A stretch of DNA of 23,871 bases from a virus: IMG/VR virus record IMGVR_UViG_3300042305_001769, positions 1 through 23,871 of that record. One strand, written 5' to 3'. The position numbers and the translations under genes were made by a program. The stretch's first letter is position 1; each line of letters begins with the position of its first letter. Shown one piece after another: positions 5,338 to 23,712 of the stretch. A model generated the notes under the pieces. It had not been told where the DNA came from. It did no database searches and worked only from the letters and a program-made list of their open reading frames with translations.

Positions 5338-6045
5338 TTAAAATTTTATGTATCCTTGCTCAAGATAAAACGAGTATCCCTTTTTAAATATATCGTGAAG
5401 TTTATTTGTGATTTTTGTTATTTTAGGGGTTTTAGCATCTACTATTTCTCTAATATAAATGTAAAGTGCTTTTTTATTAAAAATATCTAAACTTTCTCTT
5501 TTTCTAAATAATTCTAAAACCGCATCTGCTATTTGAGCATCTTCCTCTTTAGGAAATAATTCAAAAATATTTTCAGTGCAGTGTTTAGTATATTCGTCTA
5601 TATAATAAGATAAACGTTCTATTGGTTGTGTATCTTCCATTTCATAAGAATGGTTTTCATCTTCATCTAATACATCTACATCAATAGTTTCAATTCTTTT
5701 CTTATAGTTTTTCTGGTTTGAAAGAATTAAATAACGTTTTGCAATTGTACCAAAATAAGAATATGCTTTAGCTCCTTTTTCTGGTTTGAATAAATGGATT
5801 TTACTTAATAAGAATGTGATTACCTCATGTTGTAAATCCTCGATATTATCTACTTCTGTATAATAAAATTTAAAAGTGTGGATAATATTTTCTGTTAATT
5901 TGAAGAAAGCGTAATGGATTTTTGAACGGTAGATTTCATTTTTTATTTCAAAATCATTACTACTGTTGTAAGCAATAATAGCATTTTCCGTTTCCTGGTT
6001 GAAGTATTGTACTCCTTTTTTCTTCTTTTTTACTACTTCTTCCAT
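5338..6045 (-). CDS. gp55: Late-transcription sigma factor, T4 gp55-like
   Basis: 235 residues (T4 gp55 is 185). The diagnostic part is around residues 60-110: Y-Y-T-E-V-D-N-I-E-D-L-Q-H-E-V-I-T-F-L-L-S-K-I-H-L-F-K-P-E-K-G followed by A-K-A-Y-S-Y-F-G-T-I-A-K-R-Y-L-I, which matches the sigma region-2-like core of gp55-type factors. The C-terminal part is helical and extended; T4 gp55 ends in a clamp-binding tail, and here the last residues are aromatic/hydrophobic (Y-S-F-Y-L-E-Q-G-Y-I-K-F), compatible with that role. It would direct host RNA polymerase to late promoters; candidate sites are the AATATTTATAA motifs in this window. It abuts the membrane-protein gene upstream with a one-base overlap. 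Confidence 0.82.
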   Translation of the reverse strand: MEEVVKKKKKGVQYFNQETENAIIAYNSSNDFEIKNEIYRSKIHYAFFKLTENIIHTFKFYYTEVDNIEDLQHEVITFLLSKIHLFKPEKGAKAYSYFGTIAKRYLILSNQKNYKKRIETIDVDVLDEDENHSYEMEDTQPIERLSYYIDEYTKHCTENIFELFPKEEDAQIADAVLELFRKRESLDIFNKKALYIYIREIVDAKTPKITKITNKLHDIFKKGYSFYLEQGYIKF

Positions 6046-7311: not shown

Positions 7312-7329
7312 AAAATATATTATTTGAGG

Positions 7330-7362
7330 AGAATATACGAAAAAGATCCTGAAAAACCAAAT
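7330..7362 (-). promoter_or_regulatory. Early-type Bacteroidota promoter
   Basis: Sense strand: TTTGG, 20 nt from TTG to TATATT, preceded by TTTTTCG and followed by C. It lies 20 bases upstream of the ATG at 7311 and overlaps the last codon of the upstream gene. It is the only copy of this promoter class found left of the tRNA cluster. Confidence 0.7.
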
Positions 7363-9256: not shown

Positions 9257-9267
9257 TTATAAATATT
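9257..9267 (-). promoter_or_regulatory. Candidate late promoter motif
   Basis: Exact sense-strand AATATTTATAA between the end of the GEVED/dockerin gene (stop at 9266-9268) and the ATG at 9254, leaving 2 bases before the ATG. Same element as at 2829, 8799 and 15458. Confidence 0.4.
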
Positions 9268-12760: not shown

Positions 12761-13108
12761 TTATTCGTTATTTGATATATTTGATGTATTTGATAATGTT
12801 GTTCCGTCTTCCTCGTCAACCTTTTGAACTAGCATTTTATCTCTGTCTTCTGAGTTGAACCAATAATCTACAACCTTATTTAAGTTACCTACGAAGGCAC
12901 CTAATAATATTAATAACATTTCCTTCCAAGATTCTTGAATAGCAATTCCAAAGAATACTGCTGAGTTAATTCCAAGAATAATAAAGAAGAATAAAAATAG
13001 CACAATTAAAGTAATCTTCCAGCGATTAACTTGCATTTGTTGTAACATGTAGTAGAAACGATTTTTATCTTCTACTTTAACATACTCTGATTTGAATAGA
13101 TTTTTCAT
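12761..13108 (-). CDS. Two-span membrane protein, holin-like
   Basis: 115 residues. The N-terminal 30 residues are charged, followed by a hydrophobic span at about 31-55 (ITLIVLFLFFFIILGI) and a second at about 64-77 (W-K-E-M-L-L-I-L-L-G-A-F-V-G), then N-L-N-K-V-V-D-Y-W-F-N-S-E-D-R-D-K and a polar Ser/Asn tail. The pattern of a G-x-F-x-G span followed by an aromatic-x-F-x-S plus charged tail resembles small phage holin-like proteins whose last helix ends Y-F-G-S-S. A second holin or antiholin, or part of the export machinery, are both possible. Confidence 0.6.
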   Translation of the reverse strand: MKNLFKSEYVKVEDKNRFYYMLQQMQVNRWKITLIVLFLFFFIILGINSAVFFGIAIQESWKEMLLILLGAFVGNLNKVVDYWFNSEDRDKMLVQKVDEEDGTTLSNTSNISNNE

Positions 13109-15000
13109 TATTTGTTTATTAAAATTTTGTTTGTAGCAAATTTACCATTGTTAACTAATGAAGCATAATAGAAACCGTTTTCTAATGATGCATTTACTGT
13201 GTATACATATTGGCCTTTAGGCATATTTTGATTTAAAACTTGAGCAACTTTTCTACCAAACATGTCAAAGATAGCTAATTCAGTTTCACCTTCTTCTAAT
13301 AAATTAAAAGCAATTCTCATAGTACCTGGATTTGGGTTAGGAGTAGCCAATAAACAGAATTCAGTTGATTTAACTGTTGGTTTATAAAACACTCTATCTA
13401 CTTGAACAATACCCATTGTAGGAGTAATATTCATGTCTTTAGATACGTTATCACCCACGTATTTAGCGCCAGTCCATAATGCTGCTGTACCCCATTGATC
13501 TTGAGGTTTTTTAGCTATAAATTGTAAAGTAAATACTTGTTCGCCATCGTTAAATAAGCTAGAATTTGAAATATCAAATCCACCCCAAGAAATAACATTG
13601 TTAGTAGGATTCACAAATGAAATCCATTTCATTGCTTTTTCAGTATTTTCTATTTTTTTAAATTCAAGTAAAGAGGTATCGTATTTAATATCTAATTGTA
13701 AAGCACCTAATGATTTACCTTTAGTCAAAACTTTAACTGGTACATTAACTAAATTACCTTCTTCAACTTTAACTTTAGGTAAGTTAATTTCAATTGTTTC
13801 AACTATATTATCATATTGAACTGTATTGTCAATTATATATTTGTTAGCATTAGATGGGTTATTGATTTTAATTGGGATTAAACGAGCCATTTTAAAACCA
13901 GTTACGTTAGCATCACCTTTTACAGAAACGTATCTTAAAATTGAATCAGCACCTCCATTAATATAATGAGTGAAATTAGTTACACCTGAAATAGTTGAAG
14001 TATAGTTTGTATTAGATCCATTAATAGTAGCATATTCAGAAGGAGTAAAGAATAAAACATCTTTAACACCATTTACCCATGAAGTAAATCTACCACCAAT
14101 TCTACCAAATACACCATAAGCGTCAGCAATTGTAATATTATTACTACCGTTTACATCCATTGTGTAATAATCAAATCCTGTTGGGCTGTATTGTCCTAAA
14201 ACAGTTTGGTTAATCTTTTGAGCATCAGCAGTTGAAATTACATTACCAACAGTCATTGTATCACCTTTAACTGCAATACGAGTATCCCAATATGTTGTAT
14301 CTAATATTTCTTCAAAATTAAATTTACCACTATTATCAGTAACATATGATTTTACTTGAACCCAAGTAGAACCTGTTTTTTCTTTCTTTTCTAAAGATAA
14401 AACTAAGTTTTTAGCACCTGTACCAGCTGTAGTTAAGAAAGTACCTTTGAATTTTAATTTTTGTTGGATGAATTTACCACCATAAGAGTAAACAGTTAAT
14501 GTAGTATCGTTACCATAGTTAGTAGCAGCTAAATTATTAAATGTAGTTGTACCTGTAATTTTCATGGTTTTGATACTATCTAAAGCATTCCAAGTAGCGG
14601 CTGAAGCGTGTGTTAAAGTAATTTCAACAGCAGCACCATCCGAATATGAGAAAGTTGAGTTAGTGCCTGTATAGACCATAGTAACTGTAATATTGCCTTC
14701 GGTAGTATTAGTTACATATTGCATATACTGATCTGTAGAACTATATTTTAAAGCAACAGTAGGAGCAGCACCATTGAAAGCGTCTTTATCGTACCATACA
14801 CGAAATTGCATACCTGTGATTTTAGCACTAGTATTATTTCTGTAGTAAAGATTTGCTTTAGTAACACCAATGTTTGAAGGAGCTACTGTGTAGTTTGTGT
14901 CTACGATTACCCATCTTCCTGTACCAGGAGCTGGTGGGGTTGTTTGACCAAAAGTAATAGTTGCAAGTAAGAATGCAAGAATTAAGAATAGTTGTTTCAT
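13108..15000 (-). CDS. T9SS-sorted cohesin/dockerin-like surface protein
   Basis: 630 residues. Signal peptide 1-19 (ends T-F-G-Q). Residues about 30-170: beta-sandwich resembling cohesin. About 185-250: regulatory-like beta domain. About 253-303: dockerin-like region with N-V-I-S-T-A-D-A-Q-K-I-N-Q-T-V-L-G and the calcium loop M-D-V-N-G-S-N-N-I-T-I-A-D. About 400-535: cohesin-like domain (V-N-V-P-V-K-V, then L-G-A-L-Q-L-D-I-K-Y-D-T-S-L-L-E-F). About 553-630: a type A T9SS C-terminal sorting domain with P-N-P-N-P-G-T, L-A-I-F-D-M-F-G-R-K-V, G-F-Y-Y-A-S-L and a final K-I-L-I-N-K. Such domains direct cargo across the Bacteroidota outer membrane and are removed on attachment. It is the second gene of the operon and overlaps the first by four bases. 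Confidence 0.85.
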   Translation of the reverse strand: MKQLFLILAFLLATITFGQTTPPAPGTGRWVIVDTNYTVAPSNIGVTKANLYYRNNTSAKITGMQFRVWYDKDAFNGAAPTVALKYSSTDQYMQYVTNTTEGNITVTMVYTGTNSTFSYSDGAAVEITLTHASAATWNALDSIKTMKITGTTTFNNLAATNYGNDTTLTVYSYGGKFIQQKLKFKGTFLTTAGTGAKNLVLSLEKKEKTGSTWVQVKSYVTDNSGKFNFEEILDTTYWDTRIAVKGDTMTVGNVISTADAQKINQTVLGQYSPTGFDYYTMDVNGSNNITIADAYGVFGRIGGRFTSWVNGVKDVLFFTPSEYATINGSNTNYTSTISGVTNFTHYINGGADSILRYVSVKGDANVTGFKMARLIPIKINNPSNANKYIIDNTVQYDNIVETIEINLPKVKVEEGNLVNVPVKVLTKGKSLGALQLDIKYDTSLLEFKKIENTEKAMKWISFVNPTNNVISWGGFDISNSSLFNDGEQVFTLQFIAKKPQDQWGTAALWTGAKYVGDNVSKDMNITPTMGIVQVDRVFYKPTVKSTEFCLLATPNPNPGTMRIAFNLLEEGETELAIFDMFGRKVAQVLNQNMPKGQYVYTVNASLENGFYYASLVNNGKFATNKILINK

Positions 15001-16091: not shown

Positions 16092-16274
16092 TTATATAGA
16101 AACATCCCACTCATCTGCTCCTACTTGTAAACATTCAAGTAATGAAGCATTTGGAAATTGTTCCTTATGTTTAAAAGCAGAATAAACTACTTCTAATTGT
16201 AACTCAAAACTATCAGCTATTGATAAAATTCTATCACACTCATAGTTAATATTGGCTTCTTGTTCAGCTTTCAT
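16092..16274 (-). CDS. Small acidic protein, unknown
   Basis: 60 residues (MKAEQEANINYECDRI start), predicted helical, ending with E-C-L-Q-V-G-A-D-E-W-D-V-S-I. Not recognised. It ends 5 bases before tRNA-Leu, so it and the tRNA cluster are probably one transcript, driven by the promoter at 16278-16310. Confidence 0.65.
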   Translation of the reverse strand: MKAEQEANINYECDRILSIADSFELQLEVVYSAFKHKEQFPNASLLECLQVGADEWDVSI

Positions 16275-16277
16275 GAT

Positions 16278-16310
16278 ATAAATATATAAAAAGATATTTG
16301 AAATTCCAAA
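16278..16310 (-). promoter_or_regulatory. Promoter for small gene and tRNA cluster
   Basis: Sense TTTGG, then TATATT exactly 20 nt after TTG, continuing TATATC. It keeps the spacing of the early promoters but lacks their TTCG and CAC flanks. It also contains ATATTTATA, close to the late motif, so it may serve in more than one phase. Confidence 0.5.
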
Positions 16311-16958
16311 TTATTCAAAAATTACTTTCATTTCTTTTTCTCTCAATTCACTTTTACCTGCATCACTATTAAATAAAACATTTATAAAAATAGAGGCAGT
16401 ATCACCAATCATTGATTTATCTAAGAAAAAGTTTTGTGTTGGAATATAATTATACTTAGAATAACTACCTAATAATGTAGGAGAATAAGCACAAGTTAAA
16501 CACATGTATTTAGTTATCTGGTAGCCTGCTAAATTATAAAAACTAGTCATTTTACTTAATTGAGTAATAGAATATGATGTATCACCAATTGGTACAGGTG
16601 TATTTAATCCTTTATCTGAATACCAACCTAAGTAACTGTACATTGGTGTTTTAAATTTTAAAGTATCAAACACAATCCAATAATCAGAATCATATCTTGT
16701 TTCAATTAAAGGAACATTATTTATAACATAATGAGGATTTAATTCAGCTACCTCGCCTCTAATTGTAAAATAATGTAATCCAATGTATTTAACGCGCCAA
16801 TAACCATCAGCATGTAATTTAGCGCCCGGACTTGAGAATGTGTCAATATAAAACGTAGACTTACATTCTCCGTCTAAACACGGATATGGGTAAACGTTTT
16901 CTTTTTGACAGCTTATTATTACGAGAACGCTTAGTATTAGAGGAATTAGTTTTTTCAT
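16311..16958 (-). CDS. Surface lipoprotein, unknown
   Basis: 215 residues. Lipoprotein signal MKKLIPLILSVLVIISC (Cys17) followed by Q-K-E-N. In Bacteroidota, residues just after the cysteine with Gln/Lys plus acidic residues act as a lipoprotein export signal to the cell surface, so surface exposure is likely. The mature part is beta-rich with many aromatics (Y-W-R-V-K-Y-I-G-L-H-Y-F-T-I-R-G-E-V) and two cysteine pairs (C-L-D-G-E-C and C-L-T-C). No family recognised. Its first about 98 bases overlap another small lipoprotein frame. Confidence 0.72.
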   Translation of the reverse strand: MKKLIPLILSVLVIISCQKENVYPYPCLDGECKSTFYIDTFSSPGAKLHADGYWRVKYIGLHYFTIRGEVAELNPHYVINNVPLIETRYDSDYWIVFDTLKFKTPMYSYLGWYSDKGLNTPVPIGDTSYSITQLSKMTSFYNLAGYQITKYMCLTCAYSPTLLGSYSKYNYIPTQNFFLDKSMIGDTASIFINVLFNSDAGKSELREKEMKVIFE

Positions 16959-17088
16959 TTTTTGTTGTGTTTAATTTTGAATCTATTTTAGAAAAGATAA
17001 GATCTTCCTTCTCACAACCTGCAAGAAGGAAGCTTATCAAAATTATCTTAGTTGGCGTATTGTAAAGCCAAGTCATATAATTTTTCAT
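16861..17088 (-). CDS. Possible small lipoprotein overlapping the next gene
   Basis: Open frame of 75 residues (start 17088, or 17076 at the second Met). It has a convincing lipobox, I-L-I-S-F-L-L-A-G-C followed by E-K-E-D, the same surface-export-like pattern as the next gene. After residue about 40 it becomes Lys/Arg/Ser-rich where it overlaps, in another frame, the start of the lipoprotein gene at 16958. It also overlaps the end of the DUF932 gene by 41 bases. It could be real, a remnant of a longer gene, or chance around the hairpin at 17004-17032. Confidence 0.4.
   Translation of the reverse strand: MKNYMTWLYNTPTKIILISFLLAGCEKEDLIFSKIDSKLNTTKNEKTNSSNTKRSRNNKLSKRKRLPISVFRRRM
17004..17032 (-). 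repeat. Hairpin after the DUF932 gene
   Basis: Perfect 8-bp inverted repeat CTTCCTTC / GAAGGAAG with a 13-base loop, 16 bases past the DUF932 stop. The sequence after it in the minus sense is only moderately T-rich (ATCTTATCTTTT), so it may be a weak terminator or processing site. It also encodes the lipobox region of the small lipoprotein frame. Confidence 0.45.
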
Positions 17089-17851
17089 TCAATACTAAAT
17101 CTTGTTTAAAGTTCTTAATCTTACGAGCTTTACGGTTTTTAGTACCATAAGTATAATTAAACATTCCGTTAACTAATTTTTCTTGAATCACATTATAAAC
17201 TGACCACAAATCTGATCCTTGGTCTTGTGGGCGAGTTGGTGTTAATAATTTATCTAAATCAACATCAATGATTTCTAATTCTTCTTTTGTGAAACGAGTT
17301 TCAAGAGCTTTTTTAGCAAAATCAAGAGCTTGTTCTTGACCTAACTGAACTGCTTTGAATTTATTTAATGATTCAACAGTCAAAGGTAATTTTTCAACCA
17401 TTGCTTTAATTGTGTTTTGTAATTCTTCAAATGAATAACCATAGTGTCTAAGTTTCATGTTTTCGAATTCTTGAGAAGAAACAACTAAACCATTTTCACA
17501 AACCAATCTAAACAAACCAGCAGTGAAAGTAAAGGCATTTTTACCATCATGACTATTAGTTAATAGAATTTGAGGAAAAACATCATCACCATCACCAGAG
17601 GTAATTTGAATTTCGTTGTTACGGAACACAACTAAGTGTTTTTGAAAACCAACAGTGTCTTTTTTACGAGCTTTAACTTCTTTAGCATCAACAACGTTCC
17701 AACCTAATACTGACATATCGTCGATGATTTTTTCTGTTGAAATGTGAGCGTACTTTTCACTAGTGGTTGGAGCGCCTTCGGCAGTAAAGATTGAAGGTGC
17801 TTGATTACGAATTTGTTCTTTTGAAATGAAATTTTGATTAATGTCTAACAT
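17048..17851 (-). CDS. DUF932 family protein
   Basis: 267 residues. The family is recognised from the central pattern: G-F-Q-K-H-L-V-V-F-R, then F-P-Q-I-L-L-T-N-S-H-D-G-K-N-A-F, then G-L-F-R-L-V-C-E-N-G-L-V-V (about residues 70-125) and a C-terminal part with S-D-L-W-S-V-Y-N-V-I-Q-E-K-L. DUF932 proteins are common in phages and plasmids, including Bacteroidota mobile elements; their biochemical role is not established. It has a strong own promoter with a long AT-rich leader (A-T-A-A-T-A-like run before the ATG). Confidence 0.85.
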   Translation of the reverse strand: MLDINQNFISKEQIRNQAPSIFTAEGAPTTSEKYAHISTEKIIDDMSVLGWNVVDAKEVKARKKDTVGFQKHLVVFRNNEIQITSGDGDDVFPQILLTNSHDGKNAFTFTAGLFRLVCENGLVVSSQEFENMKLRHYGYSFEELQNTIKAMVEKLPLTVESLNKFKAVQLGQEQALDFAKKALETRFTKEELEIIDVDLDKLLTPTRPQDQGSDLWSVYNVIQEKLVNGMFNYTYGTKNRKARKIKNFKQDLVLNEKLYDLALQYAN

Positions 17852-17885
17852 AACTTTTATTTATTTAATTTTTTTATTATGCCGG

Positions 17886-17917
17886 GAATGTACGAAAGGA
17901 ATCCTGCACAGCCAAAT
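17886..17917 (-). promoter_or_regulatory. Promoter of the DUF932 gene
   Basis: Sense TTTGGCTGTGC, then TACATT exactly 20 nt after TTG, with TTTCG before it. The decamer CTGTGCAGGA occurs within the spacer and again just upstream (about 17919-17928), a direct repeat that could be an operator. Confidence 0.72.
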
Positions 17918-17954
17918 TTCCTGCACAGGAAATGTTATTTAGAATTATTATAGA

Positions 17955-17979
17955 TAAAAAAAGCGCCTTTCGGCGCTCT
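17955..17979 (-). terminator. Strong intrinsic terminator after the HTH gene
   Basis: Sense GAGCGCC-GAAA-GGCGCTTTTTTT: a GC-rich stem, GAAA tetraloop and seven T's, 29 bases past the HTH gene stop at 18008. It separates the regulator's transcript from DUF932. Confidence 0.9.
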
Positions 17980-18007
17980 TAACTAATAATAAAAACTAAA
18001 TCAATGT

Positions 18008-18238
18008 TTAGAATTCAAAAGTGAATTCAACTGCTTTGTCAGTGTTTTTCATTCTACGTCTAGAAATGTTGTACATTTCATTAGCAAGGTCTTGTGGAAC
18101 ATTACGTCTACCATTAACTACATTGCTAACATGTGATACAGAATAACCAGTAGCTTCAGCTAAACGGGTTACATCGCCTTTACGTTGTCTTGCAGAAAAA
18201 AAGGCTTGTTTTGCGGTACGATTTAATTTACGTCTCAT
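18008..18238 (-). CDS. Small HTH DNA-binding regulator
   Basis: 76 residues. A helix-turn-helix of XRE/LacI type spans about residues 20-45: G-D-V-T-R-L-A-E-A-T-G-Y-S-V-S-H-V-S-N-V-V-N-G-R-R. The N-terminal K-L-N-R-T-A-K-Q-A-F-F-S-A-R-Q-R-K is basic. It is a likely repressor for some of the promoters in this window. Its own promoter (18271-18302) shares the motif TTGGCTATGC with the promoters of the DUF932 gene and of the 19336 gene, which makes these plausible targets. Confidence 0.78.
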   Translation of the reverse strand: MRRKLNRTAKQAFFSARQRKGDVTRLAEATGYSVSHVSNVVNGRRNVPQDLANEMYNISRRRMKNTDKAVEFTFEF

Positions 18239-18270
18239 AACTTTTTATTTATTTTTTAATTTTTATATTG

Positions 18271-18302
18271 TCAATGTATGAAGGGAATTTTGCATAGCCA
18301 AG
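18271..18302 (-). promoter_or_regulatory. Promoter of the HTH gene
   Basis: Sense CTTGGCTATGC, then TACATT exactly 20 nt after TTG, followed by GACAA; the base block TTCA replaces the usual TTCG. The leader is AT-rich with repeated AAATAAATAA before the ATG. Confidence 0.7.
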
Positions 18303-18366
18303 CTAAGTTTAAATTTTTTGCGAGCAAGTTGTGCTTGTACTACCATTATCTATAAATCCGTATATA

Positions 18367-18861
18367 CTATCCCAAATATCCATAATCTTTACCGATTTCC
18401 TCAATTATTTGAATAGCTTTAGGAACACTTATTTTAAAAAACTCACGGTCACCTCTAGTACGTAAAGAATCTAACTTTAGGTGAACGGCTTGTTCCAAAT
18501 CCCAAGGCCTTAAACAATGGAAATCCCAATTAACGGCCCAATCATCAACCACACCCGAACCATTAACACCTTTTAAACGGCGTTCGGAAGTAGAAGTAGT
18601 CATACCAATTTTAACCAAATCGGGATAAGCATCATTGGTTAAAATATACACATAACCTCCTTCCTTATTGTTAGGTGAATTAAAATCTGTTGGAGAACCA
18701 ATATAACGAAAATACATAACATAATCCCAGCCGTCACTGGAGGCAACACGAGTGAAATGAGTAATACGGTTCATATTGCTTTCTCCAAGACCGTTTGTTT
18801 TGGGAACAACCTGGGTATATTGTGTGTTATTTAAAACTTGATCGGGTGGTAGATAAATCAT
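18367..18861 (-). CDS. T5orf172 (GIY-YIG superfamily) protein
   Basis: 164 residues. The domain covers about residues 69-155: G-G-Y-V-Y-I-L-T-N, then Y-P-D-L-V-K-I-G-M-T-T-S with Arg94/95, then W-D-F-H-C-L-R-P-W-D-L-E-Q-A-V-H-L-K-L, and G-D-R-E-F-F-K-I. These are the family's Y-x-Y-I, K-I-G-x-T, R and E-x-F motifs of GIY-YIG-like nucleases. The first 65 residues are unrelated and N-rich. The role may be nicking, recombination or self-spread; none is shown. It starts 3 bases after the stop of the preceding gene. Confidence 0.85.
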   Translation of the reverse strand: MIYLPPDQVLNNTQYTQVVPKTNGLGESNMNRITHFTRVASSDGWDYVMYFRYIGSPTDFNSPNNKEGGYVYILTNDAYPDLVKIGMTTSTSERRLKGVNGSGVVDDWAVNWDFHCLRPWDLEQAVHLKLDSLRTRGDREFFKISVPKAIQIIEEIGKDYGYLG

Positions 18862-18864
18862 GGT

Positions 18865-19158
18865 TTATGAATTGGGGTCTTCTTGATCGTCGGACGAGCG
18901 TTGGGGGCCTTTCTTTTTATAGGAGATAATCTCTTGTTCCAATAACGCCTTGTAAATGATGTCGGCTAATTCTTGTTCTTCGGGTGTTGGTTCAAAAACG
19001 TGCCCTAAATTAATTAACTGTTGTTGTACCTCGTTTAAATCGTTTTCAACGGATGAACCCCAAAACCTACGATCAAAAATATACATTGGTCCATATAATT
19101 CAACAGCAATGTCTGTGATTATATCTCTTTTTTCTAATAGTTCTTCTAATACTGTCAT
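18865..19158 (-). CDS. Small protein, unknown
   Basis: 97 residues, acidic and helical with L-E-E-L-L-E-K-R-D and T-P-E-E-Q-E-L-A-D-I-I-Y-K-A-L-L-E-Q-E, and a polar tail (S-S-D-D-Q-E-D-P-N-S). Not recognised. It lies directly upstream of the T5orf172 gene with a 3-base gap, and 24 bases after the frameshifted gene, so all three belong to the transcript from the promoter at 19344-19376. Confidence 0.68.
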   Translation of the reverse strand: MTVLEELLEKRDIITDIAVELYGPMYIFDRRFWGSSVENDLNEVQQQLINLGHVFEPTPEEQELADIIYKALLEQEIISYKKKGPQRSSDDQEDPNS

Positions 19159-19182
19159 GTTATTAAATAATTACTGATGTTA

Positions 19183-19336
19183 TTATTGCTTATCGATTAC
19201 TGTTAATGATGATGTTTTTACTATAAAACGAGATTTATCGTTTTGGATAGCACACGTGCTTTCGTCTTCTCGGTACCAAACTAATGTCCAAATTCCTGGA
19301 TGTGTTAGGCATATTACTTTATCTCCTTCTTTCATG
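19183..19336 (-). pseudogene. Small gene broken by a one-base insertion
   Basis: The ATG at 19336 gives M-K-E-G-D-K and then leaves frame, stopping at an early TAA. One base over, the frame runs open to a stop at 19183, encoding V-I-C-L-T-H-P-G-I-W-T-L-V-W-Y-R-E-D-E-S and ending in S-L-T-V-I-D-K-Q. Dropping one A from the AAAA run at 19318-19321 (sense) restores a 50-residue protein with a typical small-phage M-K-x-G-D-K-V start. It has a good promoter (19344-19376). A sequencing error, a true inactivation or a +1 programmed shift are all possible; the sequence itself cannot decide. Confidence 0.6.
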
Positions 19337-19343
19337 ATGTCGT

Positions 19344-19376
19344 GAATATACGTATATCCCTCCGCATAGCCAAATC
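19344..19376 (-). promoter_or_regulatory. Promoter of the 19336 gene group
   Basis: Sense TTTGGCTATGC, then TATATT exactly 20 nt after TTG, followed by CACGACATC. It lies 8 bases before the ATG at 19336. It shares TTGGCTATGC with the HTH promoter. Confidence 0.72.
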
Positions 19377-19746
19377 TTTTTTAAGAAGAAGAGGATCGGA
19401 TCCTGTGGTTTTTAAAAAATTTGGCCTATATGGAACTTGCGGTGCATTGTGGGGGTATATATAGGATATTTGTATATACGCGTCGAGGATGTATAGTTAT
19501 ATTCGATATCTAAATTAATCACATTCTTCTCTATATGGTATACACCCCCGTATGGACCCCAACGCGCGTGGGTACCACCAACTATATTATACTATACCGC
19601 GTGCGTACGTACGGCAAACTTATTTGATACGTCCACATTCAAGGGTCGAAAGTTGGAGGCACTCCATTCGGAATGCCCCAACCCATAATAATAATAAACG
19701 GCTACAAAGATCGTTCTATACTATTAACAACTATATAAATCTGGTT
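19377..19746. other. Non-coding structured stretch
   Basis: About 370 bases without a convincing gene on either strand. It holds a strong hairpin at 19652-19682 and a run of short palindromes: AGGATC-C-GATCCT (19391-19403), AT-rich GTATATAC-like repeats (19455-19480), GGTACC, GTATAC and CGTACGTACG (about 19529-19617). Its base composition is visibly richer in G and C and in CG dinucleotides than the flanks. No promoter of the array class is seen in it; a + strand frame at 19552-19806 has no support. Confidence 0.5.
19652..19682. repeat. Long hairpin in the non-coding stretch
   Basis: Sense strand GTTGG-GGCATTCC-GAAT-GGAGTGCC-T-CCAAC: 13 paired bases (one G-T) with a single bulge and a 4-base loop. 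No T tract follows on either strand, so it is not a typical terminator; a regulatory or origin-associated RNA structure is possible. Confidence 0.6.
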
Positions 19747-19842
19747 TTATTTGTCTTGCTGCTTCATTTCTCTATATGCTATGGCTACTATTGCACCCAA
19801 CATTAAAATTATTACAGCAAACTCTATTATTAAATCAAACAT
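19747..19842 (-). CDS. 31-residue membrane micro-protein
   Basis: MFDLIIEFAVIILMLGAIVA then I-A-Y-R-E-M-K-Q-Q-D-K. A single membrane span (residues 4-22) with a positively charged end. It starts 3 bases after the stop of the previous micro-gene, so the pair is co-translated. No family recognised; support comes from the shared promoter and the coupling. Confidence 0.6.
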   Translation of the reverse strand: MFDLIIEFAVIILMLGAIVAIAYREMKQQDK

Positions 19843-19845
19843 TGT

Positions 19846-19959
19846 TTATCCGAGTAATGTTTTTAAATCAACTAAAACTATTATTGCACTCAAAACTGTT
19901 AAAGTAAAAGCACCGGCTAAAAGTAATTTGATTTTGTCTGTTTTGTTTAAATTTTTCAT
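19846..19959 (-). CDS. 37-residue membrane micro-protein
   Basis: MKNLNKTDKIKLLLAGAFTL then T-V-L-S-A-I-I-V-L-V-D-L-K-T-L-L-G. A basic N-terminus leads into a span at about 12-30. It is the first gene after the promoter at 19981-20013, whose leader ends AAAACGAAAATG. Confidence 0.6.
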   Translation of the reverse strand: MKNLNKTDKIKLLLAGAFTLTVLSAIIVLVDLKTLLG

Positions 19960-19980
19960 TTTCGTTTTTATTATTATGAT

Positions 19981-20013
19981 GTGAATGTACGGAGAGGCTT
20001 TCGCCTCTCCAAA
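19981..20013 (-). promoter_or_regulatory. Early promoter with hairpin spacer
   Basis: Sense TTTG, then the perfect inverted repeat GGAGAGGC-GAAA-GCCTCTCC filling the spacer, then GTACATTCAC. TTG to TACATT is 20 nt. Drives the two micro-protein genes below. Confidence 0.72.
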
Positions 20014-20017
20014 CAAA

Positions 20018-20293
20018 TTATTTACTTAAACTTTCAACTAAATCATTTAAATATTTTTCCATAACTTCAAAATCACGTTTTGTTTTATCTGAAGCAAATT
20101 GATCTAAAATAATTAAATCATGTCTGCCTTTGTGATAATCAATTGCATCGTAAACATCTTTACTGTTTACTAAATCAACTATAGTAACAGTGCCGTCGCC
20201 TTCTGTTTCATCAATAATATAATCACTGTGATTTGATTGAATGTAGTTTAAAAACTCTCTGTTAATTGCTCTTCTGATTTCTGTTTTGTTCAT
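20018..20293 (-). CDS. Small protein, unknown
   Basis: 91 residues, mixed alpha/beta: I-R-R-A-I-N-R-E-F-L-N-Y-I-Q, then D-G-T-V-T-I-V-D-L-V-N, H-D-L-I-I-L-D-Q-F and a helical C-terminus. Not recognised. It ends just before the hairpin-containing promoter and has its own promoter at 20315-20347. Confidence 0.68.
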   Translation of the reverse strand: MNKTEIRRAINREFLNYIQSNHSDYIIDETEGDGTVTIVDLVNSKDVYDAIDYHKGRHDLIILDQFASDKTKRDFEVMEKYLNDLVESLSK

Positions 20294-20314
20294 ATTCGTT
20301 CTTATTATTATGAT

Positions 20315-20347
20315 GTGAATATACGAAATGGCTCTCGGGAAGCCAAC
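20315..20347 (-). promoter_or_regulatory. Early promoter with inverted repeat in spacer
   Basis: Sense GTTGGCTTCCCGAGAGCC then ATTTCG and TATATTCACATC. TTG to TATATT is 20 nt. GGCT and AGCC in the spacer can pair. Confidence 0.72.
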
Positions 20348-20351
20348 AGGG

Positions 20352-20603
20352 TTATTCTGTTATTTCAATTTCTTCAATTCTACAAATGGTAACATAAGTC
20401 CACCCATGTGCGGTCCAATCCTTATATTTACCATCCCCAAACCAATCAGATTCAATTAATTTATCTCCATACAATGGTGTTTCAGCAACTATTTTTTGGG
20501 CATGTTCTAATGCTTTTTCTTTGCTTAAATAAGTGGCTTTCAGTTCATATTCCTGGAACCCATGTTTGTTTTCATCGCCTTTATGTACTTGATATGCTTT
20601 CAT
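20352..20603 (-). CDS. Small protein, unknown
   Basis: 83 residues. M-K-A-Y-Q-V-H-K-G-D-E-N, then Y-L-S-K-E-K-A-L-E-H-A-Q-K-I-V-A-E-T, then W-F-G-D-G-K-Y-K-D-W-T-A-H-G-W-T-Y-V and a final I-C-R-I-E-E-I-E-I-T-E. The beta-helix-beta layout with a tryptophan-rich loop is typical of small phage proteins interacting with host factors, but no family is assigned. Confidence 0.68.
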   Translation of the reverse strand: MKAYQVHKGDENKHGFQEYELKATYLSKEKALEHAQKIVAETPLYGDKLIESDWFGDGKYKDWTAHGWTYVTICRIEEIEITE

Positions 20604-20624
20604 AACCTTTTTTTTATTATACCT

Positions 20625-20654
20625 AAAGATACGAACTTACTTTCGATTAAGCAA
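20625..20654 (-). promoter_or_regulatory. Early promoter, variant
   Basis: Sense TTGCTTAATCG...TTCG then TATCTTTAGG. Spacing TTG to TATCTT is 20 nt. Deviates by TTGC instead of TTGG and lacks CAC. Its upstream half overlaps the end of the 20647 gene. Confidence 0.55.
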
Positions 20655-20919
20655 CTTTTGACATAAAAAAAGTTGTAAAATTAACCTCAATATCATTGAA
20701 GGAATCCTTAACCTTACCGTCCCTAACGGATACTTCAATCTCATCCAAATACACCGTGTGTGTTGACATTAAAAACATTTCAATAAATTGACCTTTTATA
20801 AAATCAATTAACTCCTGGCCTATCATTCCTGTAACCTCAATCGGTTCAAACGAGTTATTAAAGTAGTGGTTCATAAACATGAAGTACTGCTTTTTCATAA
20901 TGTAATCGTAGTTGCTCAT
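20647..20919 (-). CDS. Small protein, unknown
   Basis: 90 residues, aromatic- and methionine-rich N-terminus (Y-D-Y-I-M-K-K-Q-Y-F-M-F-M-N-H-Y-F-N) and a beta-rich C-terminus (V-Y-L-D-E-I-E-V-S-V-R-D-G-K-V). Not recognised. The leader before the ATG carries AAAGGTT as in three other array genes. Confidence 0.66.
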   Translation of the reverse strand: MSNYDYIMKKQYFMFMNHYFNNSFEPIEVTGMIGQELIDFIKGQFIEMFLMSTHTVYLDEIEVSVRDGKVKDSFNDIEVNFTTFFMSKVA

Positions 20920-20938
20920 AACCTTTATTTTTAAGATT

Positions 20939-20970
20939 TAAATGTACGAACTTACTTTTGCTCAGCCAAC
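20939..20970 (-). promoter_or_regulatory. Early promoter
   Basis: Sense GTTGGCTGAGC...AAGTTCG then TACATTTAAATC. TTG to TACATT is 20 nt. The TTG box lies inside the last codons of the upstream gene. Confidence 0.65.
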
Positions 20971-21137
20971 CCTTCTAAGTGGCTGATTGTTGCTTTTATT
21001 GTTCCAATATAGTAACCAGACTCATAGGCATAACTAATTTCTTTACCATATTTAGACCCCTCATCCAATGCCTTCTTTAATGTGTTAACCAACGCATTTA
21101 ATTCGTACTCAGTCAATTCAATTTTTTTCATATCCAT
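20952..21137 (-). CDS. Small helical protein, unknown
   Basis: 61 residues, charged helix (I-E-L-T-E-Y-E-L-N-A-L-V-N-T-L-K-K-A-L-D) and a second helix with Y-Y-I-G-T-I-K-A-T-I-S-H-L-E-G-L-A. Not recognised. The start could also be M3. Confidence 0.65.
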   Translation of the reverse strand: MDMKKIELTEYELNALVNTLKKALDEGSKYGKEISYAYESGYYIGTIKATISHLEGLAEQK

Positions 21138-21149
21138 TATTATTATGGG

Positions 21150-21182
21150 GTGAATGTACGAAATTATCTTTTAAGACCCAAC
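21150..21182 (-). promoter_or_regulatory. Early promoter
   Basis: Sense GTTGGGTCTTAAAAGATAATTTCG then TACATTCACCCC. TTG to TACATT is 20 nt. Overlaps the end of the 21164 gene. Confidence 0.68.
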
Positions 21183-21409
21183 CCTTTATCCACACCATCC
21201 CACAATTTTCTAGCCATTAGGTAATCCACCTCAGCCATTATATCTGATTCATACTCTCGGGTCATTACCTCAATTGGGTAACCCTCAGGTAACTCATCTA
21301 AATTATCTAATTGCCAATCCAGGAATTGTTCTATTTCGAAGTAACCCCAATCATCTGAAATACCCATTAAACATTGGGCTGCGTCTCTAAGTTGTTCTTG
21401 TAATGTCAT
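21164..21409 (-). CDS. Small acidic protein, unknown
   Basis: 81 residues, very acidic in the middle (D-D-W-G-Y-F-E-I-E-Q-F-L-D-W-Q-L-D-N-L-D-E-L-P-E-G). Acidic, Trp-containing small phage proteins are sometimes DNA mimics or inhibitors of host enzymes; that is only a possibility here. Confidence 0.66.
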   Translation of the reverse strand: MTLQEQLRDAAQCLMGISDDWGYFEIEQFLDWQLDNLDELPEGYPIEVMTREYESDIMAEVDYLMARKLWDGVDKGLGLKR

Positions 21410-21424
21410 AACCTTTATTATGTG

Positions 21425-21457
21425 GTGAATGTACGAAATTTATTTTAGGCTTCCACG
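21425..21457 (-). promoter_or_regulatory. Early promoter, weak -33 box
   Basis: Sense CCGTGGAAGCC...AAATTTCG then TACATTCACC. The usual TTG is GTG here, at the same 20-nt spacing, so this copy is probably weaker. Confidence 0.5.
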
Positions 21458-21660
21458 GATTGAAACACAACATCCAAATGCATGGTATTTAAACTCAACA
21501 TCAAATACTCATCTTGTTCAGCCTCATTTAATGAGTCAGCTATTTCCATCATATCGGCCCATGTACTAGGTCCCATCATCCCATAAACATCTATTTCACG
21601 GTTGGCTCTTAATTGCAAATTCAATAATCTGTGTACTTTTTCTCTGTTAATTGTATTCAT
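21445..21660 (-). CDS. Small acidic protein, unknown
   Basis: 71 residues starting MNTINREKVHRLLNLQLR. The open frame extends further upstream to 21753 but that part translates the promoter at 21683-21715, so the start at 21660 is chosen. Acidic and helical in the second half (E-I-A-D-S-L-N-E-A-E-Q-D-E-Y-L-M). Not recognised. Confidence 0.66.
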   Translation of the reverse strand: MNTINREKVHRLLNLQLRANREIDVYGMMGPSTWADMMEIADSLNEAEQDEYLMLSLNTMHLDVVFQSVEA

Positions 21661-21682
21661 GTTATTATTTATTATTATGGTG

Positions 21683-21715
21683 TGAATATACGAAATGGCC
21701 CTCGAGGGGCCAAAT
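21683..21715 (-). promoter_or_regulatory. Early promoter with palindromic spacer
   Basis: Sense ATTTGGCCCCTCGAGGGCC then ATTTCG and TATATTCACACC. TTG to TATATT is 20 nt. The spacer holds GGCCC...GGGCC. Confidence 0.72.
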
Positions 21716-21722
21716 CTGTTTT

Positions 21723-21827
21723 TTAATGGAATATAACTGCTATATAATAACAAGTAATTCCTACAATCGCTATACTGAGTACACCCAGTACTAATTCGAT
21801 TAAGTCTTTTTTAGTTTCTTTGTTCAT
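21723..21827 (-). CDS. 34-residue membrane micro-protein
   Basis: M-N-K-E-T-K-K-D-L-I then a hydrophobic span (ELVLGVLSIAIVGITCYYIA) and V-I-F-H. The start is one base after the stop of the 46-residue gene upstream, so the two are coupled. Not recognised. Confidence 0.6.
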   Translation of the reverse strand: MNKETKKDLIELVLGVLSIAIVGITCYYIAVIFH

Positions 21828-21828
21828 A

Positions 21829-21969
21829 TTACAATAATTGAGATACTAACCAAGCAAATAAACCACTCAATACTACAAACGCTGTACTGTATACTAAGTT
21901 TGTAAATGCTGCTTCACGTCTAATTTGACGTTTTGATGTTTCGTAATTAAAATTGTTTTGTTGTTTCAT
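21829..21969 (-). CDS. 46-residue membrane micro-protein
   Basis: A basic, Gln/Asn-rich N-terminus (M-K-Q-Q-N-N-F-N-Y-E-T-S-K-R-Q-I-R-R) followed by one span at about 24-44 (NLVYSTAFVVLSGLFAWLVS). First gene after the promoter at 21991-22023, with leader AACGAAAATG as in the 19959 gene. Not recognised. Confidence 0.6.
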   Translation of the reverse strand: MKQQNNFNYETSKRQIRREAAFTNLVYSTAFVVLSGLFAWLVSQLL

Positions 21970-21990
21970 TTTCGTTCTTATTATTATGTT

Positions 21991-22023
21991 GTGAATGTAC
22001 GAAATTTATTTTAATCTTCAAAC
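21991..22023 (-). promoter_or_regulatory. Early promoter
   Basis: Sense GTTTGAAGATTAAAATAAATTTCG then TACATTCACAAC. TTG to TACATT is 19 nt, the only copy with that spacing. Its TTG box lies inside the end of the 22011 gene. Confidence 0.62.
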
Positions 22024-22169
22024 TTTTCAAACTCACCTATTTCTTTTAATTCATCAATGATAGACTCTAAAGTATAAGATAAATCTTCTAAGTCAAAATT
22101 ATCAGCTTTTGTAATGTTGCTTTCAGCAATTTGTTTTGCTGCTTCTAAATGTTTAATTAATTCTTTCAT
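22011..22169 (-). CDS. 52-residue helical protein, unknown
   Basis: MKELIKHLEAAKQIAESNIT then D-N-F-D-L-E-D-L-S-Y-T-L-E-S-I-I-D-E-L-K-E-I-G-E-F. Two amphipathic helices, acidic C-terminus. Not recognised; supported by its own promoter and by continuous codon use like its neighbours. Confidence 0.62.
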   Translation of the reverse strand: MKELIKHLEAAKQIAESNITKADNFDLEDLSYTLESIIDELKEIGEFEKFED

Positions 22170-22190
22170 GTTATTTATTATTATTATGAT

Positions 22191-22223
22191 GTGAATGTAC
22201 GAAATTAATCTAATATCTCCAAC
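22191..22223 (-). promoter_or_regulatory. Early promoter
   Basis: Sense GTTGGAGATATTAGATTAATTTCG then TACATTCACATC. TTG to TACATT is 20 nt. Overlaps the end of the 22205 gene. Confidence 0.68.
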
Positions 22224-22507
22224 AATTCTTCTTTAGCTTCTTGAGTAACTGTTCTATTTTTACCTCCAATATGAAACTCAATTACTTCATCTAAATCAAG
22301 TACTCTATATTCTTTCCAATCGTAAATAGTAAATATGTCACCGTTTTCAGTTTCACATATCCAATCAAAATTTACTTTATCTTCACCTGTATTACCAATG
22401 ATTTGAGCTTCACCTAAAGCTTTAGTTAATTTATTCACTGTAGTTTTAATAACTGTATCGTGAAATGAGGTTCCGTTTGCTTCTACTCTGTTTGTTAATT
22501 TAGCCAT
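22205..22507 (-). CDS. Small conserved-looking phage protein, unknown
   Basis: 100 residues. M-A-K-L-T-N-R-V-E-A-N-G-T-S-F, then F-D-W-I-C-E-T-E-N-G-D-I-F-T-I-Y-D-W-K-E-Y-R (about 47-68) and I-E-F-H-I-G-G-K-N. The F-x-I-Y-D-W-K region is of a kind found in small proteins of several phages, but I cannot name the family or function. Complete, with its own promoter. Confidence 0.7.
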   Translation of the reverse strand: MAKLTNRVEANGTSFHDTVIKTTVNKLTKALGEAQIIGNTGEDKVNFDWICETENGDIFTIYDWKEYRVLDLDEVIEFHIGGKNRTVTQEAKEELLEILD

Positions 22508-22531
22508 GTTTTTATTATTTTTTATTATGAT

Positions 22532-22564
22532 GTGAATATACGAAATTTACTCTGAATCTCCAAC
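22532..22564 (-). promoter_or_regulatory. Early promoter
   Basis: Sense GTTGGAGATTCAGAGTAAATTTCG then TATATTCACATC. TTG to TATATT is 20 nt. Confidence 0.68.
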
Positions 22565-22741
22565 TGAGTTTTCAATATACAAAATAAAGTCTTCCATTAG
22601 TTCTTCTCTAGTTTTATAACCTATACCATGACCAAAATCAATATTACCATCTTCATCAGTATTTTCTCCAATACCATGTAAGTATTCAGTAACCAATTCA
22701 TCTAATAGATTTTCTACTTCTTCAAATTTTAAATTTTTCAT
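22547..22741 (-). CDS. Small acidic protein, unknown
   Basis: 64 residues, strongly acidic (E-E-V-E-N-L-L-D-E-L-V-T-E-Y and E-N-T-D-E-D-G-N-I-D-F-G-H-G-I-G-Y). No family. Its ATG lies one base after the stop of the 22743 gene, so the pair shares a transcript. Confidence 0.66.
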   Translation of the reverse strand: MKNLKFEEVENLLDELVTEYLHGIGENTDEDGNIDFGHGIGYKTREELMEDFILYIENSVGDSE

Positions 22742-22742
22742 A

Positions 22743-22922
22743 TTAGTCTTGTTTTTCAGATTTTTCTATTTCAGTAAATACAGCATGTAATATCATATGA
22801 TAACCTTCAAATACTTTATCAATCAAATAGATTTCATGATGATAATTTTCAATAAGATCTTGTAGTTCATCTGAGAATTTTTTTAATTCTTGTGGGTGGT
22901 TTTGTTCAAATTCGCTTTTCAT
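22743..22922 (-). CDS. 59-residue helical protein, unknown
   Basis: Starts MKSEFEQNHPQELKKFSDEL. The open frame extends upstream to 23015 but that part translates the hairpin-containing promoter, so 22922 is chosen. A charged helix then H-H-E-I-Y-L-I-D-K-V-F-E-G-Y. Not recognised. Confidence 0.66.
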   Translation of the reverse strand: MKSEFEQNHPQELKKFSDELQDLIENYHHEIYLIDKVFEGYHMILHAVFTEIEKSEKQD

Positions 22923-22940
22923 TTTTATTATTATTATGAT

Positions 22941-22974
22941 GTGAATGTACGAAGAGGCTTTCGCCTCTCCAAAT
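22941..22974 (-). promoter_or_regulatory. Early promoter with hairpin spacer
   Basis: Sense ATTTGGAGAGGCGAAAGCC then TCTTCG and TACATTCACATC. Same hairpin as at 19981 and 23162 with one changed base (CTTC for CTCC). TTG to TACATT is 20 nt. Confidence 0.72.
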
Positions 22975-22987
22975 GAATTTTTTATTT

Positions 22988-23143
22988 TTAACCTACTAAA
23001 ACTTCCATTAAACAATCACAAATCCAAACGTTTTCATAACTTTCTTTAGCTTTACGTTCAACACATAATGCTCTTGAATAATCATTGGTAGAGTAAATAT
23101 CAAAAATTTCTTTACCTAATGATGCTTTAACTATATATCTCAT
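22988..23143 (-). CDS. 51-residue protein, unknown
   Basis: M-R-Y-I-V-K-A-S-L-G-K-E-I-F-D-I-Y-S-T-N, then A-L-C-V-E-R-K-A-K-E-S-Y-E-N-V-W-I-C-D-C-L. Three cysteines (C27, C42, C44). Beta-alpha-beta layout. Not recognised; own promoter at 23162-23195 and a leader with AAAGGTTATG. Confidence 0.62.
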   Translation of the reverse strand: MRYIVKASLGKEIFDIYSTNDYSRALCVERKAKESYENVWICDCLMEVLVG

Positions 23144-23161
23144 AACCTTTATTATTATGAT

Positions 23162-23195
23162 GTGAATGTACGGAGAGGCTTTCGCCTCTCCAAAT
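23162..23195 (-). promoter_or_regulatory. Early promoter with hairpin spacer
   Basis: Sense ATTTGGAGAGGCGAAAGCC then TCTCCG and TACATTCACATC. Spacer is the perfect inverted repeat GAGAGGC-GAAA-GCCTCTC. TTG to TACATT is 20 nt. Confidence 0.72.
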
Positions 23196-23202
23196 AAATT
23201 TT

Positions 23203-23655
23203 TTAATATTCTATATTTATTTTCTTTAAAAGTTCATTAATTAATTCTTCAATATTAATATCATTTTTAATATTATTTAATACTAATTCATTATTAATTT
23301 TAATCTTTAAATTATCATCATATTTTAAATTTCTATTTTTATTAAAACAATAACCATCATAAATTAAACCTCTACTATTACTACTCTCCCAATTTAAACA
23401 TTTATTTACATCATTTAAATCATCCATATAAATTCTAAAATTATCATCTTCACATCTATTTTTAAATTCTTCTAATTTTTCTTTATATTCTTTCTCTAAA
23501 TTTAAATATTTCTCTATAATTTCTTTTTTAATTATTTTAAATTCTTTAATTTCATTTTTATATTTTTCTCTATAATTATCTTTTATTTCTTTATCTTTTC
23601 TTTCAATAATTACATCAACTAAAACTTCAATTTCCTTTTTACTTAATTTTTTCAT
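23203..23655 (-). CDS. Lys/Glu/Asn-rich coiled-coil protein, unknown
   Basis: 150 residues. Residues 1-70 form a highly charged coiled coil (K-K-E-I-E-V-L-V-D-V-I-I-E-R-K-D-K-E-I-K, then E-K-E-Y-K-E-K-L-E-E-F-K). The second half has C-L-N-W-E-S-S-N-S-R-G and an Asn-rich C-terminus. Its DNA is even more AT-rich than the neighbours and its codons are mostly A/T-ended, which may mark a different origin. Not recognised. Confidence 0.68.
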   Translation of the reverse strand: MKKLSKKEIEVLVDVIIERKDKEIKDNYREKYKNEIKEFKIIKKEIIEKYLNLEKEYKEKLEEFKNRCEDDNFRIYMDDLNDVNKCLNWESSNSRGLIYDGYCFNKNRNLKYDDNLKIKINNELVLNNIKNDINIEELINELLKKINIEY

Positions 23656-23679
23656 ATTATTATTTATTATTATTATGAG

Positions 23680-23712
23680 GTGAATATACGAAATTATTTC
23701 TGGATTTCCAAA
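23680..23712 (-). promoter_or_regulatory. Early promoter
   Basis: Sense TTTGGAAATCCAGAAATAATTTCG then TATATTCACCTC. TTG to TATATT is 20 nt. Confidence 0.7.

Follow-up and report, generated by a model that had tools for sequence, protein, structure and literature searches.

The stretch of DNA analyzed here, referred to throughout as the window, is the complete IMG/VR virus record IMGVR_UViG_3300042305_001769, with a length of 23871 bases. It represents a fragment of a T4-like phage that has not been cultured; nearly all genes lie on the minus strand, and between 16278 and 23712 that strand carries an array of two-box elements with the form TTG-N20-TAYATT. An earlier note on this DNA read the array as 18 immediate-early promoters tuned to the host sigma factor. 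That reading has to be widened, as it overlooked the stem-loops located in the spacers between the two boxes, which are the main point of this work. The open reading frames (ORFs) of the window include a baseplate wedge protein relative, a DUF932 protein, and a T5orf172 protein, accompanied by five tRNAs; a gp25-like ORF matched below the Pfam cut-off and no head genes were identified in the window itself. The ORF at 13108-15000 harbors a cohesin domain and a C-terminal sorting domain of the type IX secretion system, and the latter suggests that the host belongs to Bacteroidota. Among isolates, Flavobacterium phage immuto is the closest, with identities of 46% for the baseplate protein and 44.5% for the DUF932 protein. 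Uncultured relatives are numerous: relatives of the baseplate protein were encoded in 598 of 600 stretches and relatives of the DUF932 protein in 121 of 147, with 80 kept in each case.

A one-stranded array with fixed spacing

The array is real, one-stranded, and fixed in its spacing. The minus strand of 16278-23712 contains 15 exact TTG-N20-TAYATT matches; in 300 Markov shuffles of the sequence the mean count was 0.31 and the highest 4. There are no matches on the plus strand of the same interval, spacings other than N20 in the range 14-26 give 0-2 minus-strand matches each, and the window outside the interval has one match on each strand. Three variants, with an N19 spacer (21999), GTG (21433), or TATCTT (20631), bring the sites to 18, the number given previously, but two of these were dropped. 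The site at 16777 (TACATT) falls within ORF 16311-16958 and is attributed to chance, while that at 16286 scores 13.8 and its box, TATATTTATA, overlaps a late-type TATTTATA box, to which it is better assigned. Weight-matrix scores are at least 23.6 for 16 window sites, with 17.5 as the top score of 50 shuffled windows, although these same sites had served to train the matrix, so that the scores are descriptive and not an independent test. One further early-type member is found outside the interval, at 7337. The distance to the ATG is 15-41 nt in the 14 window sites examined, the exception being 7337, where it is 229 nt because the ORF caller picked another start. As described before, TTCG is present 5′ of the box in most window sites; CAC 3′ of the box is common in the window phage. 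The individual features are as follows.

23680..23711, minus, candidate early-type promoter TTG-N20-TATATTCAC before ORF 23203-23655; weak GGAAATCC spacer hairpin
23162..23193, minus, candidate early-type promoter before ORF 22988-23143; spacer hairpin GGAGAGGC-GAAA-GCCTCTCC at 23191-23172
22941..22972, minus, candidate early-type promoter, small ORF from ~22926; GAAA-loop spacer hairpin as at 23162..23193
22532..22563, minus, candidate early-type promoter before ORF 22205-22507; upstream gene's stop codon in the spacer, without embedded hairpin
22191..22222, minus, candidate early-type promoter before ORF 22011-22169; spacer contains the upstream gene's stop codon
21991..22021, minus, candidate early-type promoter before ORF 21829-21969; spacer of N19
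21682..21713, minus, candidate early-type promoter, ORF start 21660; terminator-like spacer hairpin TGGCCCCTCGAGGGCCA (21712-21696)
21425..21456, minus, candidate early-type promoter with GTG replacing TTG, before ORF 21164-21409
21150..21181, minus, candidate early-type promoter before ORF 20952-21137; upstream gene's stop codon in the spacer
20938..20969, minus, candidate early-type promoter (TACATTTAA), ORF 20647-20919 downstream; spacer contains the upstream gene's stop codon
20623..20654, minus, variant TTG-N20-TATCTTTAG before ORF 20352-20603
20315..20346, minus, candidate early-type promoter before ORF 20018-20293; terminator-like spacer hairpin TGGCTTCCCGAGAGCCA (20345-20329)
19981..20012, minus, candidate early-type promoter, small ORF from ~19959; GAAA-loop spacer hairpin
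19342..19373, minus, candidate early-type promoter before ORF 19183-19335
18270..18301, minus, candidate early-type promoter (TTCA-TACATTGAC) before helix-turn-helix-like ORF 18008-18238
17884..17915, minus, candidate early-type promoter before DUF932 ORF 17048-17851; overlapping 10-bp stem-loop, ~17930-17902
16278..16309, minus, TTG-N20-TATATTTATA ahead of ORF 16092-16274; preferably interpreted as a late-type TATTTATA box
7329..7360, minus, isolated candidate early-type promoter lying beyond the array, upstream of the gene group ending with sigma-like ORF 5338-6045
5338..6045, minus, sigma-factor-like protein, candidate late sigma; sub-threshold profile matches and non-significant fold matches

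Between two of the cassettes, at 19410-19735, lie ~300 bases in which the minus strand has no ORF and runs of ATATAC and ACGCG are abundant.

The main comparison set consisted of 11 records: the window, immuto, and nine relatives. When CGTAYATT alone was used as the anchor, TTG was located exactly at N20 in 151 of 199 coding-strand sites, and the other TTG offsets among those shown had 0-6 sites each, except N32 with 12 sites, where the TTG lies roughly one helical turn upstream of the −33 element. On the opposite strand, 1 of 25 CGTAYATT sites had TTG at N20. A pattern much like the composite TTG-N18-CGTAYATTHA was found in 13 of 13 related phage records, on a single strand except for one match in G007, and its reversed control gave 0 matches in all 13 (G010 and G011 have only 2 and 1 matches). 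Across 165 sites the next ORF starts at a median of 31 nt and within 60 nt in 82%, and only 21 sites fall inside ORFs, though the DNA is 90% coding. The two boxes therefore stand directly before small genes. The triplet after the box is CAC, TAC, TAA, TAG, GAT, or GAC across the clade.

The −7 box, the late-type class, and a sigma-like protein

Comparison with the host promoter code upheld only part of the proposed tuning to the host sigma factor. The phage sites have in common with Bacteroidota primary-sigma promoters (TTTG/TAHHTTTG; PMC6847099) a TTG upstream element, here the −33 TTG, and a TAnnTT core. However, the Flavobacterium −7 box given there is TAHHTTTG, with T at −6 and G at −5 nearly invariant, whereas the 176 phage sites compared do not follow this pattern: the fraction with A at −5 is 0.88 and that with T at −6 just 0.45. 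The phage sites differ also in the preceding TTCG, the rigid N20 spacing, and the strong −33 element. Host-type TAHHTTTG boxes do occur in these phages but show no tie to TTG-N20, which accompanies 10 of 554. In 41 Flavobacteriaceae genomes the composite gave 41 matches compared with 38 for the reversed control, which is chance, and the host-type TTG-N20-TAYHTTTGC was above its control in most of these genomes. A host-like origin of the TTCG and CAC flanks was rejected on this basis, and the suggestion that the flanks are phage-specific additions survives, except that CAC is not shared across the clade. Over the entire genome collection the composite was present in only 44 stretches, of mixed phyla; in one genome, G014, 6 of 8 matches are on a single contig, C73, which is probably a binned phage contig. 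Collectively, these sequence comparisons mark the composite box as phage-specific. A scan for sigma-70 promoters (TTGACA-N16-18-TATAAT) showed no clear excess, with 54 found compared with 44.1 (standard deviation [SD] 6.9).

The gaps without a cassette harbor a second motif. TATTTAT occurs in 132 of these gaps compared with 26.2 expected, and the coding strand of 668 gaps contains TATTTATA 146 times and TATAAATA 26 times. The T4 late promoter is TATAAATA (PMC1524935), of which TATTTATA is the reverse complement. ORFs following late-type boxes are longer, with medians of 163 versus 98.5 aa, and on the minus strand of the window TATTTATW boxes are positioned just before ORFs at 2837, 5330, 8807, 9265, 15466, and 16284. 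In immuto, the region beyond 114 kb, which holds the head and tail genes, contains none of the 12 intergenic early-type sites but 19 of the 41 late-type sites (Fisher P = 0.002, with the boundary set after the map was seen). TATTTATA thus forms a separate, clade-wide late-type motif class next to the early type, while the activity and timing of the early-type sites, termination in their spacers, and the sigma factor reading them are inferred.

A candidate reader of the late-type box is encoded by ORF 5338-6045. The ORF has sub-threshold matches to Sigma70_r2 and to sigma70-ECF (extracytoplasmic function). Its predicted structure (mean predicted local distance difference test [pLDDT] 72.9, predicted template modeling score [pTM] 0.42) retrieved mostly sigma factors with Foldseek, none of which reached E 0.001, and a PDB sequence search with it found nothing. 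The protein is conserved in 15 relatives at 60-80% identity, and the immuto gene at the corresponding place is annotated as hypothetical. It may be the counterpart of gp55 and, as such, would be the natural reader of TATTTATA.

It could also be imagined that this protein, or a phage-modified holoenzyme, reads TTG-N20-TAYATT and that the array represents a middle or delayed-early class. The very rigid spacing, the A at −5 in place of the near-invariant host G (PMC6847099), the chance level of the composite in Flavobacteriaceae, and the presence of an encoded sigma-like protein are all in favor of such an arrangement. However, the host sigma factor knows a TTG −33 element while a gp55-type late sigma needs none, and the box-only TATTTATA class, found before larger and structural genes, is a better partner for a phage sigma. 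Nor is early-type control of the sigma gene, as suggested by the site at 7337, a clade rule: a site is present within 2.5 kb upstream in 9 of 57 loci, compared with 18 of 60 for a phosphohydrolase gene and 0 of 59 for the baseplate wedge gene. We therefore regard reading of the array by a phage sigma or modified holoenzyme as unlikely.

Stem-loops inside the spacer

The window spacers at 23170, 22949, and 19989 contain the hairpin GGAGAGGC-GAAA-GCCTCTYC, those at 21690 and 20323 were called terminator-like (10 calls on both strands, compared with 3.5, SD 1.8), and a 10-bp stem overlaps the site at 17892. In five window sites the upstream stop codon ends 5-15 nt short of the box, and none of these five has a stem of at least 7 pairs in its spacer. 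Among the 361 sites with a downstream ATG in the 11 records, a perfect stem of at least 7 pairs ends at −12 to −1 in 45; the same search shifted by −150, −120, −90, +50, +75, +100, or +125 gave 0-4 sites, and by −60 gave 14. Stem-loops are thus present in the spacers of a subset of sites, and 316 of the 361 have no such stem. The hairpin 3′ ends are mostly at −1, −3, −5, or −7/−8, with a T-rich tail before the box in many. Folding energies under −8 kcal/mol were obtained for 22% of sites, compared with 7% and 10% in the flanks. In the small-gene region of immuto there are 17 terminator-like calls on both strands, compared with 5.1 (SD 2.3), several of them in spacers, and canonical terminator-like hairpins with a T-run were seen, several in number, in immuto, G001, G003, G005, and G012. 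At immuto 64522 the TTG itself forms part of the 5′ arm of the hairpin, and two bases separate the end of the T-run from the −7 box.

Covariation was analyzed for sites selected for a C-GNNA-G loop only, 27 of 683 distinct sites, with motif-fetched loci included. Positions −16/−7 pair in 23 of the 27 (GC 11, CG 7, AT 5) compared with 12.2 after shuffling, −17/−6 in 22 (12.4 shuffled), and −18/−5 in 26 (16.8 shuffled). These three pairs clearly exceed the shuffles. The −15/−8 pair covaries less, in 18 compared with 10.8; −19/−4 shows no excess (21 compared with 21.5), and −20/−3 and −21/−2 are uninformative. These counts show compensatory changes in the stems of the spacer hairpins.

The sequence data support the earlier claim of a minus-strand promoter battery with one promoter per small gene. 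We consider it likely that the array, in a hypervariable region of a T4-like Bacteroidota phage, consists of early promoters that serve nearly every small gene and resemble the promoter-early stem-loops (PeSLs) of T4-type phages, some of the spacers doubling as the terminator of the preceding gene. Host RNA polymerase would start ~6-7 nt past each TAYATT box soon after infection, giving transcripts with a short leader rich in A. If the gene upstream stops short of the promoter, the 20-bp spacer would often fold as an RNA hairpin, with a U-tract in immuto, and this hairpin may end or protect the upstream transcript just before the −7 box. In this way, neighboring small genes would become separate units.

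Several observations weigh against this interpretation. The phage −7 box departs from the host consensus at −6/−5. The mean folding energy is only modestly lower than that of box-fixed shuffles (−5.83 versus −4.33, P = 0.003), with 23% of 165 sites more than 3 below the shuffles and most sites lacking a strong hairpin. A free upstream stop is only weakly linked to a strong hairpin (21 of 82 versus 3 of 25, P = 0.04, by energies), and the U-tracts of the window hairpins are short (TTTCG), which is weak for intrinsic termination. Moreover, a literature search found no RNA data on these phages.

The inverted repeats might instead be operators of a dimeric DNA-binding protein, or cruciform elements such as those of N4, and some are indeed perfect palindromes with a GCGAAAGC-type core, the loop in question being found in 27 of 683 sites. 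For N4-type promoters the hairpin is obligatory for recognition. In the present phages the large majority of sites, counted above, have no hairpin, which hence is not a recognition requirement, and where stems exist the pairing is kept while stem sequence and position vary and many 3′ ends carry the T-rich tail. An operator or cruciform function is accordingly quite improbable.

The leaders are more similar within genomes (0.545) than between them (0.451; largest permuted difference 0.012), as expected of concerted change, though the excess is absent in immuto (0.41/0.41), G005 (0.41/0.42), and G008 (0.32/0.37). This similarity, and the anecdotal single case of a homology block (L209 versus window 22981-23074) ending at cassette 22949, would be consistent with repeats that are mainly recombination substrates or mobile, with an incidental likeness to promoters. 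By raw count, block ends at cassette junctions with small flanking ORFs are 0.58 versus 0.39, and 58 of 89 junctions versus 129 of 244 have a block end, but with gap matching the values are 53 of 76 versus 56 of 89, which is not a clear enrichment; together with the fixed N20, the distance to the ATG, and the orientation, all unexpected of a mere repeat, this makes a primary role in recombination highly improbable. For gene shuffling mediated by the cassettes, the same counts give no clear signal in either direction.

Likeness to known promoter cassettes

Work by Arbiol in 2010 and Comeau in 2014 reportedly described PeSLs of T4-type phages, with the stem-loops acting as terminators and mediating gene shuffling. 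The window phage and its kin belong among T4-type phages, as immuto is annotated with gp20, gp23, the terminase large subunit, and the tail sheath and the window encodes the baseplate wedge relative. PeSLs are cassettes of T4-type phages such as RB49 (PMC4503421). In a 9-kb hypervariable stretch of RB49, we found that 5 of 9 strong stems stand directly behind TTGAC and that a −10-like box (TATAAT, TATACT, or TACAAT) starts where the stem ends. A search with the promoter consensus GTKTAC had given 5 matches and no stems, and it was the stems-first search that revealed this layout. Thus, as in RB49, a stem-loop lies between the two boxes of an early promoter, before small ORFan genes in hypervariable regions. 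There are also differences. The window phages, a distant T4-like group consisting of Immutovirus and uncultured kin, have TTG-N20-TAYATT, of the Bacteroidota kind, instead of TTGACA-N17-TATAAT, and only a subset of their sites contains stem-loops. It is possible, if doubtful, that T4-like phages keep or reinvent a terminator inside the promoter across sigma codes (17 bp for sigma-70, 20 bp in Bacteroidota) and that, in addition, the box of the Bacteroidota phages has drifted from the host consensus (with A at −5 and a preceding TTCG), so that a phage-altered or phage-specific holoenzyme favors these promoters.

The early promoters of T4, as described in PMC2988021 and PMC1524935, are likewise numerous, strong, and over-conserved, with conserved bases beyond the host elements, many before novel ORFs, and a separate late class; the window phages differ in having no TTGACA/TATAAT likeness. 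The archaeal myovirus HGTV-1 has a promoter-like box and an inverted repeat before most ORFs of one region, which its authors likened to PeSLs (PMC3950731), but its motifs are of the archaeal TATA-box type and belong to an unrelated host transcription machinery. Among the literature matches listed, none reports these promoters for phages of Flavobacterium, and the words promoter and terminator are absent from PMC7077304. The design is known from Escherichia coli phages; in the present phages it is matched to a promoter code of quite another kind, which broadens the range of composite terminator-promoter cassettes to include phages from a phylum that specifies transcription differently. The two motifs, TTG-N20-TAYATT and TATTTATA, provide a simple two-class promoter grammar for the many uncultured phages of this aquatic group. 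Because immuto has been grown in the laboratory on Flavobacterium sp. LMO8, experiments can directly address timing, sigma use, and termination, and the boxes could become ready-made parts for expression in Flavobacterium.

Two minor observations were also made. In G006 and G007 (L361-L371), an extra conserved upstream box is present around CGTCAT at ~−37, and TGACGTAT, located 3′ of the −7 core, could pair with it across the promoter. In the window, ORF 9266-10336, near the ORF with the sorting domain, contains a GEVED domain.

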